From positions 1 to 64,000 of the IMG/VR virus record IMGVR_UViG_3300048583_000155: 64,000 bases of DNA; one strand, written 5' to 3'. Position numbers and translations under genes: made by a program. This stretch comes from a virus. This document shows positions 1 through 57,130 of this stretch, one piece after another; positions within the stretch are counted from its first letter, which is position 1, and each line of letters starts with the position of its first letter. The notes beneath the pieces are model-generated. The model did not search any database. It was not told the DNA's origin and worked only from the letters and a program-made list of their open reading frames with translations.

Positions 1-99
1 TAGTGACCCGAAAGCGTATGCAAACGAAGAATTTATAGGCTACTATTGTGAAAAATGCGATGAAGTCTACTGCGGTTCGATTTAAAATTACTGCTAACG
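1..99 (+). repeat. 99-bp direct repeat, copy 1 (partner 1478-1576)
   Basis: Bases 1-99 are identical to 1478-1576. The identity covers the end of the 71-aa cassette gene and its TACTGCTAAC end, and stops exactly after the AACG core. Base 100 is t, whereas base 1577 is a. The left limit is set only by the window edge, so the real repeat may be longer. Confidence 0.95.
2..85 (+). pseudogene. 3' end of a Cys-rich 71-aa cassette protein, first copy, cut by the window edge
   Basis: Only the last 27 codons are visible. They are identical to the end of the complete gene at 1347-1562, including the C-x2-C motif (YCEKC) near the stop codon. The rest of this copy lies outside the window, so it may be intact rather than broken. 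No function is known; a small zinc-binding protein is possible. It is followed directly by a TACTGCTAAC cassette end at 89-98. Confidence 0.75.
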
Positions 100-191
100 T
101 TTGGTGGCTTGGCGAAGTACCGCCTAGCACAAATGTTGAATTATAGTACAAAGGCTTATGGCGGTATTTTGCCAAACCACTGTTATAAGCC
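89..191 (+). repeat. attC-like palindromic spacer 1 between cassettes
   Basis: The left boundary is the cassette end TACTGCTAAC (89-98). The inner arms 104-124 and 160-180 form an imperfect 21-bp inverted repeat (18 of 21 positions match) around a 35-nt loop. The right boundary is GTTATAAGCC (182-191), which begins the next cassette and is complementary to that cassette's own end at 515-524. Bulged arms between an AAC box and a GTT box resemble integron attC sites, although GTTATAA does not fit the classical GTTRRRY core. Confidence 0.65.
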
Positions 192-232
192 GTTTTTTTC
201 TTGGTTTGGTGTAACAATTTAATTTAAAAACA

Positions 233-511
233 ATGTCAAAAAAAATCTTCAAGTATCAATTAGAAACAACAGATGTTCAACAAGTAGAAATGCCACAAGG
301 TGCAGAGATACTTTGTATTCAAACTCAAAACGGAACGCCTTGTATTTGGGCTTTAGTTGAACCAAACGCAACTATAACAAAACGAGCTTTTGAAATATTT
401 GGAACTGGTCATAATGTGCCTGAAAATGGAAACAGAAAATACATTGGCACATATCAATTAAATGGTGGCAGTTTAGTGTTTCATTGCTTCGAGTTGTTTG
501 GTCTGTCCTAA
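233..511 (+). CDS. DUF7352-like small protein in a mobile cassette
   Basis: This 92-residue soluble protein resembles the DUF7352 family, small proteins of unknown function found in many phages, plasmids and genomes. Recognisable segments are KIFKYQLETTD at the start, QGAEILCIQTQNG near residues 22-34 and FEIFGTGH near residues 53-60. There is no signal peptide or membrane segment. It is the only gene of its cassette, which runs from GTTATAAGCC (182) to GGCTTATAAC (524). The ATG follows an A-rich leader without a Shine-Dalgarno sequence. The family assignment is from memory of the motif pattern. Confidence 0.7.
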   Translation: MSKKIFKYQLETTDVQQVEMPQGAEILCIQTQNGTPCIWALVEPNATITKRAFEIFGTGHNVPENGNRKYIGTYQLNGGSLVFHCFELFGLS

Positions 512-514
512 AAT

Positions 515-574
515 GGCTTATAACGGCTGCGTATAGGCGGTCGTTTTAATGCCGCCTATACGTTGTTATGGGCA
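515..574 (+). repeat. attC-like palindromic spacer 2 between cassettes
   Basis: The cassette end GGCTTATAAC (515-524) is followed by a perfect 11-bp inverted repeat, CGTATAGGCGG (530-540) with CCGCCTATACG (552-562), and then GTTATGGGCA (565-574), the start of the next cassette. The loop is 11 nt. The outer AAC and GTT boxes are partly complementary. The architecture matches spacers 1 and 3 while the arm sequence is unrelated. Confidence 0.7.
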
Positions 575-606
575 GTAGCGGTTTATTAACGGAAAATTTA
601 ATTAGA

Positions 607-1200
607 ATGAAGAAATACAAAACAATCATAGCCGACCCACCTTGGAAATATGAAGGACGTGGCCCAGCTTCGGCAAAAGAACACCGACCAAACAGTTACG
701 GAGCAGCACCGAGTAGTGAAGAACGCTATGGGGCAATGACAATGGAAGAACTGAAACAACTGCCTGTAAAAAATATGAGTGAAGATAAAGCACATTTATA
801 CTTATGGGTAACAAATGCTTTTATTGAACGTGGGTGGCAGTTGTGTAAGGATTGGGGATTTGAGCCCAAAACAGTGGTGACGTGGGGCAAATTAAGACGT
901 GCTGATGGTAAGCCAAGTATGAAAACAGGATACTACTTTAGGGGTGCAACGGAACACTTCATATTTGCCACAAAGGGGAATTTAAGATTGAAAGATAAGG
1001 CAGTTGAACCTACACTGTTTTTGAGCGAAAGATTGCCCCATAGCGTAAAACCCGAATGGTTTTATGAACTTGTTAATCGGTGTTCTTTTGACAATAAGTT
1101 GGAATTATTCGCAAGGAAAGAAAGAGAAGGCTATGATTGTTTTGGCAATCAAGTTACGAACTCTGTCAACTTGGAGCAGTATCGTAGCTATTGCCCATAA
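607..1200 (+). CDS. MT-A70 family DNA adenine N6-methyltransferase carried by a cassette
   Basis: This 197-residue protein is a stand-alone MT-A70-type methyltransferase that transfers a methyl group from S-adenosylmethionine to adenine N6. The catalytic motif D10-P-P-W13 follows the N-terminal strand, and YFRGATEHFIFATKG in the middle and DNKLELFARKEREGYDCFGNQ at the end are family-typical. The ATG at 607 aligns the N terminus with the phage's own MT-A70 enzyme at 56552-57097; an upstream ATG at 568 lies next to the cassette boundary. The stop codon lies inside the inverted cassette end TGCCCATAAC. No restriction partner is adjacent. A role in self-protection or anti-restriction is inference. 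Confidence 0.88.
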   Translation: MKKYKTIIADPPWKYEGRGPASAKEHRPNSYGAAPSSEERYGAMTMEELKQLPVKNMSEDKAHLYLWVTNAFIERGWQLCKDWGFEPKTVVTWGKLRRADGKPSMKTGYYFRGATEHFIFATKGNLRLKDKAVEPTLFLSERLPHSVKPEWFYELVNRCSFDNKLELFARKEREGYDCFGNQVTNSVNLEQYRSYCP

Positions 1201-1328
1201 CGGAAAAGCTAAACGATGGTTGGGATAGTCACAAACCCAAACTTCGATTAAAGACTGATTAAAAAAGTACAAACTGAACTTTAAATTTAAAAATTAACCC
1301 AACTATTGTTTAGCGAATGTTAGCAGTA
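1192..1328 (+). repeat. attC-like palindromic spacer 3 between cassettes
   Basis: The cassette end TGCCCATAAC (1192-1201) overlaps the methyltransferase stop codon. The inner arms 1208-1224 and 1298-1314 match at 15 of 17 positions as an inverted repeat and enclose a 73-nt loop. The right boundary GTTAGCAGTA (1319-1328) is the exact complement of the end of the following cassette (1566-1575). Like spacer 1 it is an imperfect hairpin. Confidence 0.65.
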
Positions 1329-1346
1329 GTTTTTATTCCACTAAAT

Positions 1347-1562
1347 ATGAAAAATAGAGAAAAGTTAGTAAAACAATTATTTGTTGGTAAAGTTTCTGAA
1401 ATTTTAGGATTTGATAAAACATTAGAATTACTAAAAGAAGCAAACGATGCTTTTAAAAAATGCGAACACAACGAAGATAGTGACCCGAAAGCGTATGCAA
1501 ACGAAGAATTTATAGGCTACTATTGTGAAAAATGCGATGAAGTCTACTGCGGTTCGATTTAA
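1347..1562 (+). CDS. Cys-rich 71-aa cassette protein, complete copy
   Basis: No family was recognised. The N-terminal half is helical and charged; the C-terminal half carries C-x-H near residue 39 and C-x2-C plus one more Cys in YCEKCDEVYC, consistent with a small zinc site. The ATG at 1347 is preferred over one at 1317 because 1317 lies inside the spacer palindrome, upstream of the GTTAGCAGTA cassette start. A second copy, at least 3'-identical, ends at 85. It is the last cassette before phage-type sequence. Confidence 0.65.
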   Translation: MKNREKLVKQLFVGKVSEILGFDKTLELLKEANDAFKKCEHNEDSDPKAYANEEFIGYYCEKCDEVYCGSI

Positions 1563-1576
1563 AATTACTGCTAACG
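1478..1576 (+). repeat. 99-bp direct repeat, copy 2, ending at the array/phage junction
   Basis: This copy is identical to 1-99. It ends at TGCTAACG (1569-1576), after which the sequence changes to phage-type sequence with no matching right palindrome arm seen downstream. The junction therefore falls exactly on the cassette core box. Confidence 0.9.
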
Positions 1577-1591
1577 ATTGTATGTACGCAA

Positions 1592-1604
1592 TTAACAATG
1601 TTAA
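1592..1604 (+). promoter_or_regulatory. TTAAC-N3-GTTAA operator-like palindrome, site 1
   Basis: TTAACAATGTTAA lies 6-18 bp upstream of the ATG at 1610 of the first phage gene. It contains an in-frame ATG at 1598, which is therefore unlikely to be the start. Seven or more sites of the same pattern occur upstream of other early genes. The position suggests autoregulation if the 1610 product is the regulator, which is inference. Confidence 0.55.
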
Positions 1605-1609
1605 CCACT

Positions 1610-1843
1610 ATGAAAAACAGCGAAAAAATCAAAAACAGGCTGATTCAGTGCGTTGAAGAAGGTGAATTAAGTCTTGGTGACATTATTGAAATCATTCAGT
1701 ATTTGGTTAGCAAAGTTAACCTTACTACTCAGGCAAAATACGCAAAGAATCACGGCATCAGTCGGGCGGGAGTAATTAAAAGATTGAAAGGCGGAAAAGA
1801 AGCATTTATAGAAATAATTGGAAACAGATTTATAATTGACTAG
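1610..1843 (+). CDS. small helix-turn-helix DNA-binding protein
   Basis: This 77-residue protein has an acidic helical N-terminal half and a C-terminal HTH resembling excisionase or MerR-type modules: QAKYAKNHGISRAGVIKRLK around residues 45-64, followed by a short beta hairpin. The genes at 48634-48789 and 48986-49195 share this layout. It is the first gene of the left + operon and has a palindromic operator immediately in front. It is a candidate phage regulator; the target is not shown by the sequence. Confidence 0.6.
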   Translation: MKNSEKIKNRLIQCVEEGELSLGDIIEIIQYLVSKVNLTTQAKYAKNHGISRAGVIKRLKGGKEAFIEIIGNRFIID

Positions 1844-44037: not shown

Positions 44038-44045
44038 TATATTTG
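44038..44045 (+). promoter_or_regulatory. -7 box TATATTTG for the lone + strand gene
   Basis: TATATTTG matches TAnnTTTG exactly and ends 3 bp before the ATG at 44049. No clear TTTG -33 box was seen at the right distance, so the promoter is tentative. Confidence 0.35.
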
Positions 44046-44048
44046 TCC

Positions 44049-44654
44049 ATGCCTGATAATAAAGAAGAAAAAGCCAAACGAAAGAAAGCTGTTGCTTTGG
44101 TTGAATACAAACCAAACGAGCTTGGTGTCCGGGATGAAGCATTCGTCACTGAAGGAAATAACCTTAAATCTTTCTATGCCAAAAACTATCCCGACACCGA
44201 TTTGGAAGTAATACCTTTTTATGGTCAAGATGAATTCAATTCCACTAAAGAGAAAATCAAAGGCGTTGAAGATGTGTATCTCATGGGCCATATGGGTTCC
44301 CGTATCGGTAACGTCCCTCATGAAGAAATGGCTAAAACCCTCAAGGACTCCGGCGCCAAGAACTGTACGATAGGCAGTTGTTCTTTCGAAGGTTACGCTG
44401 ATATATACAAGAGTCAAGGATTTCAAAACCTTAAATGGAGAGAAAAAGAACCTTGGCTTGGAGTTTGGGATAACGCCAAAGATATTGATTCCGCTTTCTT
44501 CGCTAAAAGACTCGTTCCTAATCCCGGTCCAACAGATCAACCCGCCAATGTCACCAAACCGGTTCAGGGAGTACACTTCAATCGAATCTTCAACAGACCC
44601 AAAGAAGAGGCTGTTCCGGTTCCTGCTAGACCAAACCCTGCTTTTTTCAAGTAG
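44049..44654 (+). CDS. lone + strand gene: clan-CD-like (caspase/C80-type) cysteine peptidase candidate
   Basis: The 201-residue protein has a Lys/Glu-rich start, then VEDVYLMGHMGSR near residues 76-88 and AKNCTIGSCSFEG near residues 103-115. A strand ending in His-x-Gly and a second strand ending in Ser-Cys about 25 residues later is the dyad layout of clan CD peptidases (caspase, C25, C80, CHAT). The C-terminal 40 residues are Pro-rich. It is the only + gene inside the - strand replication module and ends tail-to-tail with its neighbour, so it looks like an independent insertion (moron). The - strand ORF opposite is considered its shadow. Confidence 0.5.
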   Translation: MPDNKEEKAKRKKAVALVEYKPNELGVRDEAFVTEGNNLKSFYAKNYPDTDLEVIPFYGQDEFNSTKEKIKGVEDVYLMGHMGSRIGNVPHEEMAKTLKDSGAKNCTIGSCSFEGYADIYKSQGFQNLKWREKEPWLGVWDNAKDIDSAFFAKRLVPNPGPTDQPANVTKPVQGVHFNRIFNRPKEEAVPVPARPNPAFFK

Positions 44655-55459: not shown

Positions 55460-56260
55460 TTATATTCCGGTAAATGATAATTGTTGTCCTTCTTTTGGTT
55501 TTTGATCTTCATGCCATTTTGCTACCCGATCAAGAATAATATCGTAATACTTCTCTTCTTTTTCCATTACAATAAAACCCCTTTCTTCTTCGAGTGAAGC
55601 GATAGCCGTAGTACCCGATCCTCCACAGTTATCAAGAACCACATCTCCTTTGTTTGTATAGGTCCTGATAAGATATCGAAAAAGATCAACGGGTTTTTGG
55701 GTAGGGTGTAAGGCTGATTTCTGTTTGTCGGATTTAAATACCTGAACACTTCTCGGGAATCTCTCTGTTGAGTCGTAATCCGGGATAGATTCCAAAATCT
55801 CCTTTCCATATAACCTATCATCCTTCTCGTTTGATCTCTTAGCGCAGTCTCTTCTATTCTTAGCGGAAGACACTTTTCTGACGTGCCCAAATGTTTTCTG
55901 AGGGTTATATGTCGGCAAATGTTTATAGAACACCAATACGTTCTCATGGGACTTCATCGGCATCTTCTTTGAATTCAAAGCACCGGTAGCGCTAGTTTTC
56001 TCCCAAATCCACTCATACCTGAATAATTTAGGCTCAGCCAAAACCAACATAGATGAAAAAGGCTGCTCTGCAGTCAGTACAATAGCCCCGTTTTTCTTGA
56101 TTATCCTTTTGTAGTGATCCCAAAGCGGGACCATATGGATCATTTTATCCCACTTCGCCCTAGTTTTTTCATAAGGCAAATCACAAAGAATCATATCTAC
56201 ACTCCCATCAGGAATATCCTTCATTAATTCCAAACAGTCACCAAGCAGGATTTTATTCAT
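55460..56260 (-). CDS. DNA methyltransferase, beta class (DLPY, N4/N6-type)
   Basis: This 266-residue methyltransferase begins with DLPY (residues 27-30) preceded by GDCLELMKDIPDGSVDMILC. The target-recognition region follows, then the SAM-binding part near the C terminus, GDVVLDNCGGSGTTAIASLEEER. The order with the catalytic motif before the SAM motif is that of beta-class enzymes. It probably methylates phage DNA to evade restriction; the site is unknown. Confidence 0.88.
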   Translation of the reverse strand: MNKILLGDCLELMKDIPDGSVDMILCDLPYEKTRAKWDKMIHMVPLWDHYKRIIKKNGAIVLTAEQPFSSMLVLAEPKLFRYEWIWEKTSATGALNSKKMPMKSHENVLVFYKHLPTYNPQKTFGHVRKVSSAKNRRDCAKRSNEKDDRLYGKEILESIPDYDSTERFPRSVQVFKSDKQKSALHPTQKPVDLFRYLIRTYTNKGDVVLDNCGGSGTTAIASLEEERGFIVMEKEEKYYDIILDRVAKWHEDQKPKEGQQLSFTGI

Positions 56261-56551: not shown

Positions 56552-57097
56552 TTAAAGAATTATATCACTCTCTACCTCATTTCCCCATACATCCCAACCA
56601 TCATGTTTCTCTCGTGCAAATAGTTCAATTTTACTCCCAAAAGAAACCGCTTCTATCATTTTACGGAAATCATCAGGCTTTTTACTATGCTTCTCTACAG
56701 GTAGTTTTTTAATGTTATGCTCCAATGAACGAAATGCTTTTACCTTTCCCTTTACACCAACCAAAATATGTTCAGTATGCCCACGAAACCAATATCCCAT
56801 TCCTTTACACCTTTCTTTGTGCCAAGTAATCGTCGTCTTGTATTTGAAGCCCCATTGCTTCATTGTTTCTAATGCTTCAGGCAATAGAGGATTGGTAGCC
56901 CAAAGGAAAAGCACACAATCTTTCTCACAAATTTCTTTTACGGGCAGACTCATAATATCAGTCATGGACATTGTTTTATAGTAATAATCAACACCTGACG
57001 AATACCCACTTCCCTTTGATCCACCCTTAGATGCGGTTGGTTCTTTAAAATTATAACTCCAAGGAGGATCAGCGTAAATCACATTATATTTTTTCAT
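56552..57097 (-). CDS. phage MT-A70 family adenine N6-methyltransferase
   Basis: The 181-residue protein carries D10-P-P-W13 in the N-terminal motif MKKYNVIYADPPW. It continues with DCVLFLWATNPLLPEAL, WHKERCKGMGYWFRGHTEH and KIELFAREKHDGWDVWGNE. It matches the cassette-borne enzyme at 607-1200 in motif order and spacing. It probably protects phage DNA. The ATG at 57097 is preferred to 57124, which lies inside an operator. Confidence 0.9.
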   Translation of the reverse strand: MKKYNVIYADPPWSYNFKEPTASKGGSKGSGYSSGVDYYYKTMSMTDIMSLPVKEICEKDCVLFLWATNPLLPEALETMKQWGFKYKTTITWHKERCKGMGYWFRGHTEHILVGVKGKVKAFRSLEHNIKKLPVEKHSKKPDDFRKMIEAVSFGSKIELFAREKHDGWDVWGNEVESDIIL

Positions 57098-57117
57098 TCG
57101 GTAAATATAAGAATTAC

Positions 57118-57130
57118 TTAACATTGTTAA
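57118..57130 (-). promoter_or_regulatory. operator-like palindrome, site 8
   Basis: TTAACATTGTTAA lies 21 bp upstream of the MT-A70 start and overlaps a non-preferred upstream ATG at 57124. Confidence 0.6.

Follow-up and report, generated by a model that had tools for sequence, protein, structure and literature searches.

The window analysed here comprises bases 1 to 64,000 of the IMG/VR record IMGVR_UViG_3300048583_000155 (70,414 bases, classed as linear), and at its left end lie three small plus-strand genes, each enclosed by its own exact 10-bp inverted ends. Cassette C1 (182-524) is bounded by GTTATAAGCC at 182 and GGCTTATAAC ending at 524, cassette C2 (565-1201) by GTTATGGGCA at 565 and TGCCCATAAC ending at 1201, and cassette C3 (1319-1575) by GTTAGCAGTA at 1319 and TACTGCTAAC ending at 1575. 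The boundaries described in an earlier note on this sequence are thus exact to the base; the three-cassette chain was obtained in none of 500 dinucleotide shuffles of positions 1-1700, where even two-cassette chains were absent, and the 64 kb contain no other chain with 10-bp ends, even of two cassettes. C1 carries an ORF at 233-511 with a match to DUF7352 (PF24043, E 2.7e-29), C2 an MT-A70 DNA methyltransferase at 607-1200 (PF05063, E 4.2e-27) and C3 an ORF at 1347-1562 with no confident family.

Three attC-like hairpins, read on the plus strand from AAC to GTT, accompany these genes. Hairpin A (96-184), which together with C1 forms one unit, has spacers of 5 nt on the left and 1 nt on the right, and its assignment draws on the recurrence of its core and on the structure of close copies at loci L004 and L006. 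Hairpin B (522-567) is of a short type with the conserved loop TCGTTTTAATG, a recurrent loop type, and spacers of 5 and 2 nt, while hairpin C (1199-1321) is of a long type with spacers of 6 and 4 nt; both are supported by their predicted folds. A scan against Rfam gave no match, and a near search of window positions 1-25000 against INPHARED gave none either. The first phage gene past the array (1598-1843, plus strand) is an ORF that appears helix-turn-helix-like and takes the position occupied by a recombinase gene in relatives; no relative of it was found in the viral contigs searched. The sequence AACAATGTTAA lies just ahead of phage genes at window 1594-1604 and 1851-1861, and at about 7265-7276 in L003, and is possibly a phage promoter or operator.

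The ends of the record help to place the array. Positions 1-99 are an exact duplicate of 1478-1576, so that the window opens with a second copy of the 3' end of C3 (...TACTGCTAAC/G, plus strand), joined to hairpin A and not to phage DNA. Window 95-221 is repeated without change in the final 127 bases of the record, whose right end reads, in order, a phage integrase of 303 aa, a small gene X, GCTTATAAC/G, hairpin A and the first bases of C1. All the junctions, namely GCTTATAAC/G from X to hairpin A, and TACTGCTAAC/G both from C3 to phage DNA and, at the record start, from C3 to hairpin A, fit a rule by which the sequence switches after AAC. The simplest path through these sequences is a circular phage genome running X - hairpin A - C1 - hairpin B - C2 - hairpin C - C3 - phage, on which the first 94 bases of the record would be an extra C3-to-hairpin-A junction. 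Such a junction is what would be expected of an excised 1,477-bp circle of C1, C2 and C3, and a tandem or reordered array would fit equally well.

Since both record ends run into the array, it is simpler to suppose a circle that includes the array than a host array that served as the phage attachment site and lay outside the phage, and the latter was rejected. The array apparently lies within the phage genome, at an attI-like site, and nothing points to the suggestion of the earlier note that it was the integration site of the phage itself. That the array was wrongly joined to the phage at the record end during assembly would accord with terminal repeats of exactly 99 and 127 bp, lengths that look like typical assembly k-mers. 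Such an artefact is nevertheless very improbable, as both phage ends run into the array and close a circle around it, the array/phage boundary is the best attI match, and comparable arrays are embedded within other phage contigs and within complete isolate genomes.

The core of hairpin A was found in eight IMG/VR contigs, where the left-hand sequence and genes differ in each case and switch exactly at AAC/GTTTGG; it is also present in a Ferruginibacter chromosomal contig and in a Chitinophagales MAG. In several of the hairpin A contigs, 3-7 cassettes are chained together, whereas shuffled sequence gave nearly no such chains. Most copies of hairpin A at L004-L011, as at window 182-235, are followed by a leader of about 50 bp (GTTATAAGCCGTTTTTATTCGTGTTTGG...AAAAACAATG) and then by different genes; the leader is possibly a portable promoter with a translation start. 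In one contig a tyrosine recombinase, P0001 (266 aa), directly follows the array. Relatives of P0001 were located at 32 viral loci, and most have a same-strand cassette chain directly upstream, the longest with 10 cassettes (L035). The chains beside recombinase genes far exceed those in shuffled sequence, and a strict chain detector reported none at the recombinase loci L016, L026 and L040. Carriers include isolated flavophages and records of 100-465 kb, and a terminase match was obtained for 10 of 26 carrier records (7 above the cut-off). For the Polaribacter phage P12002L, the cassette-array detector gave no clear array of the phage type.

An unbiased selection was made by choosing viral loci solely by the short hairpin ATAAACAA-TCGTTTTAATG-TTGTTTAT, which has the same loop type as hairpin B, giving at least 80 loci. 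In these, AAC and GTT both flank 88 of 90 short-type hairpins at fixed distances, and wherever a P0001-type recombinase was present (9 loci), the hairpin lay upstream of it and on its strand. Stem folding was predicted by the fold model for 57 of 60 phage sites. The C2 protein has a 90%-identical copy in another contig, preceded by a different hairpin and box. The sites thus recur beside different genes in many IMG/VR phage contigs, and the coincidence reading, which the earlier note had allowed for, falls; its suggestion of an undescribed family of integron-like cassettes in Bacteroidota phages, lacking IntI, is borne out.

The crossover point could be read from seven near-identical isolates of Polaribacter phage Freya (one host, 44.0-48.9 kb), which differ from one another by whole cassettes. 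Among 20 distinct indel comparisons, 16 had junctions that were resolved, all of them after ...AAC, and the script could not place the other four. The junctions read AAC/ACCCCTATAAC; one 902-bp difference is internal to the array, while most insertions adjoin ACCCCTATAACAAC, and this site, which precedes the integrase gene by about 50 bp, is for that reason taken as the Freya attI. The isolates gain or lose cassettes, gain and loss not being distinguishable for a given difference. In metagenomic contigs, cassettes of 477 bp (shared by L009 and L011) and 410 bp (L010 and L026) start at or just before the AAC with its hairpin and end within a base of AAC, and L007 and L016 diverge at AAC/G where a common upstream gene ends. 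The earlier note had placed the crossover at the GTT after the hairpin; it lies instead at the AAC before it, as seen in Freya, in the shared metagenomic cassettes and in the spacer geometry. As the resolved junctions fall after ...AAC, each cassette consists of a hairpin, then its gene, then AAC ([hairpin-gene-AAC]); the hairpin is on the 5' side of the gene, and the genes run toward the attI/recombinase end.

The associated recombinase is Xer-like and does not have the IntI-specific insertion. From the lysine region to HxxR, 13 IntI have 91 residues and nearly all members of the P0001 family 43-44, as compared to 55-57 in XerC/D-like proteins and 49-52 in other Bacteroidota relatives. P0001 scores 150 bits on the integron integrase model TIGR02249 (cut-off 265), in a match that falls into two pieces, and 174 bits on XerA_Arch (cut-off 220); the catalytic R, K, HxxR, H and Y are legible in its sequence. 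All 27 viral family rows form one group in the tree (support 89) and IntI another (100). As the Freya and Ingeline recombinases lie on a branch separate from the P0001 clade, two related recombinase types seem to serve one type of array. The P0001 and Freya proteins are the proposed catalysts of cassette recombination.

The observation in the earlier note that no integrase was visible holds for IntI, though relatives of the array do carry the Xer-like recombinase, and it is missing only from the window record. No P0001-type recombinase was found in this record of 70 kb, and it would follow that the recombinase acted in trans or was lost. The 303-aa integrase of the record, remotely related to P0001 (E 1.9e-4), was considered for the role and rejected, as it has no close relatives in viral contigs and its kinship to the P0001 family is remote. 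Chromosomal relatives of P0001 in Bacteroidota (about 45% identity) were likewise set aside; almost none had arrays in their 1.5-kb flanks or in the larger regions examined, and they probably have another function. An exception is L066, in a complete 5.4-Mb genome (G354), where a longer, LFEGQ-type Xer-like recombinase has a cassette-like array downstream (GTTACCAGTA...TACTGGTAAC), possibly a third arrangement.

Nearly every P0001-type gene is preceded by AAC/TATNATATAT(C/A)AACA or a variant of it. A matrix built from 15 distinct recombinase-adjacent sites, one of which (L020) was probably mis-picked, was applied to the 70-kb record, and the site AACGATTGTATGTACGCAAT at the array/phage boundary (1573-1592, plus strand, with the crossover in AAC) ranked first among 2,584 20-mers with AAC and second among all 140,788 20-mers. 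Its score of 10.1 bits lies under those of all training sites except one. The Freya attI differs from that of the P0001 clade. Relatives of the phage with an unoccupied attI were sought, and none was found. Between the last cassette and attI, L035 (4892-4928) and L025 (ahead of the recombinase) have a very small hairpin (e.g. GTTATGGCA-TCGTTTTAATG-TGCCATAAC), which resembles an empty cassette.

The presence of integrases in Freya, Leef and Ingeline, which has been taken as temperate potential (PMC8776804), together with the hairpin A copy in the Ferruginibacter chromosomal contig, could suggest that the Xer-like protein is a temperate integrase that uses an attC-like site of a host array as attB, cassettes being gained when a prophage excises at a different site. 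Prophages would then carry a close relative of P0001, but none was found at E <= 1e-75 in any of 399 genomes of the Chitinophagales-type host order. Moreover, the carriers include the 100-465 kb records, and the Freya arrays vary by discrete cassettes within the phage genome, mainly at one attI. Such a lysogeny device is accordingly held to be quite improbable.

True IntI from the same phylum provide a control for the geometry of these arrays. Within Bacteroidetes proper, complete integrons are reported from Salinibacter only in the IntegronFinder 2.0 paper; in the present survey, 57 of 198 Bacteroidota genomes (e.g. L120, L122, L123 and L126) had a true IntI above the curated cut-off, with canonical arrays. 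In the latter the genes are divergent from intI, whereas in the phage arrays they lie on the strand of the recombinase, with the array upstream. The phage spacers measure 5 nt on the AAC side and 1-2 nt on the GTT side (n=57), as against 2 and 6 in the IntI arrays (n=25); the window sites have 5-6 and 1-4, in addition to the attI-like boundary. In the fold model, mean unpaired arm bases are 1.05 (left) and 1.28 (right) for phage sites and 4.68 and 2.08 for IntI arrays; the phage hairpins as modelled have no consistent asymmetry of extrahelical bases, while the IntI-array sites have left-arm bulges. On the opposite strand, a phage site shows canonical G^TT polarity and its gene is reversed. The longest ORF runs toward the recombinase in 43 of 76 cassettes and away from it in 8; the remaining 25 have no ORF of at least 45 codons, or neither strand has the longer one. 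The boxes do not fit GTTRRRY, as had been remarked earlier, and those of true Bacteroidota IntI arrays are equally loose (GTTATAAGT, GTTAGCAGT). IntI was rejected as the cognate enzyme, since the arrays next to true IntI have the opposite polarity.

The same control bears on the view that these are ordinary host Bacteroidota cassettes, made and moved by a true IntI and passively picked up by phages as CALINs, the Xer-like gene being an ordinary phage integrase. True IntI are common in the phylum, with arrays having similar AAC/GTT boxes, and CALINs in phages, including a Polaribacter phage, have been published, IntI1 recombining 5 of 6 such attC tested (PMC9892861). However, the crossover side, gene orientation and spacers are all mirrored with respect to the IntI arrays, and the phage arrays keep a constant position upstream of the genes of one recombinase clade, with an attI motif of their own; we consider passive carriage unlikely.

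Taking these lines together, we give a probability of about three in four to the reading that the array belongs to a phage-borne, integron-like cassette system with an Xer-like recombinase and a 5' AAC crossover. In such a system each cassette would take the form [AAC/ hairpin - GTT - gene - AAC/], and the Xer-like tyrosine recombinase, whose gene in most relatives comes directly after the array, would have as its substrate the coding strand of the hairpin, folded and presumably single-stranded, with that strand reactive. Strand exchange would take place between the 5' AAC box and an attI-like site (in the main family AAC/TATNATATAT) that precedes the recombinase gene by about 40-70 bp, and thus cassettes would be added or removed beside the recombinase, with their genes running toward it. 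In the window phage, C1-C3 would have entered the attI-like site at 1573 through a recombinase supplied in trans, by a co-infecting phage or the host, or since lost.

Integrons in phages are already known, either as CALINs or with IntI, and the phage system shares with them inverted-box cassettes, hairpins bounded by AAC and GTT, change mainly at attI beside the recombinase, and a cargo of small, mostly unknown genes and DNA methyltransferases (PMC9892861). The two differ in that the integron site lies 3' of the gene with its crossover at GTT, while the phage hairpin lies 5' of the gene with its crossover at the 5' AAC; the integron integrase is typically divergent, while phage cassette genes point toward the recombinase. 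The phage recombinase also does not have the IntI-specific additional domain near patch III, and the phage sites have mirrored spacers and, in the fold model, no consistent extrahelical-base asymmetry. Treponema integrons (PMC3607928) likewise have recombinase and cassette genes on one strand; however, in these the intI gene reads toward attI, with the array beyond it, whereas the phage array precedes and runs into the recombinase. The pdif modules of Acinetobacter (PMC6449649) are also gene modules with movement proposed through Xer-type recombinases (XerCD), but they are Xer-site modules that depend on host XerCD, unlike hairpin arrays with a dedicated recombinase and an attI.

A further parallel is the integration of CTX phage, an Xer reaction on a folded single-stranded site without extrahelical bases and with a recombinase that has no I2 domain (PMC4792948). 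It differs in involving a single phage site and host XerCD, with no cassettes and no array, and by this analogy the phage system resembles a cassette version of the CTX reaction. In the same work, crossover is placed at the AAC of the attC bottom strand, and strand selectivity is attributed to extrahelical bases. We lean slightly towards the view that phages evolved a second, mirror-image form of cassette capture from an Xer-like recombinase without the I2 domain and hairpins without extrahelical bases. If so, cassette recombination would either have been solved independently here or be seen in a living form that is intermediate between the Xer recombinases and integrons. A search of the open-access literature, with subscription papers and preprints beyond its scope, found no description of such a mirror-image system, and the Freya paper reports the genome size range and an integrase, the word integron being absent from it (PMC8776804). 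Integron function has been held to need the IntI-specific domain, and attC extrahelical bases to set strand choice; the phage arrays, in contrast, show no consistent extrahelical bases and are associated with an Xer-like recombinase that has no such domain, and whole cassettes distinguish isolates that are otherwise nearly identical. How cassette recombination arose thus becomes testable in a culturable pair, Freya and Polaribacter.

Such arrays give Bacteroidota phages a widespread route for trading small genes, e.g. DNA methyltransferases. A scan of 45 cargo ORFs, including the window cassette genes and gene X, identified four DNA methyltransferases (three N6_N4 and one MT-A70), one GNAT, one YopX-like and one ParB-like protein, and most of the 45 matched no known function. 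Outside the array, the window encodes two more probable DNA methyltransferases on the minus strand (55460-56260 and 56552-57124), one of them MT-A70-like as in C2 on reading of its sequence. Elsewhere, a 203-aa ORF on the plus strand (44043-44654) stands amid minus-strand genes, and its GHMGSRIG and IGSCSFEG motifs recall, by eye, a caspase-like cysteine peptidase.
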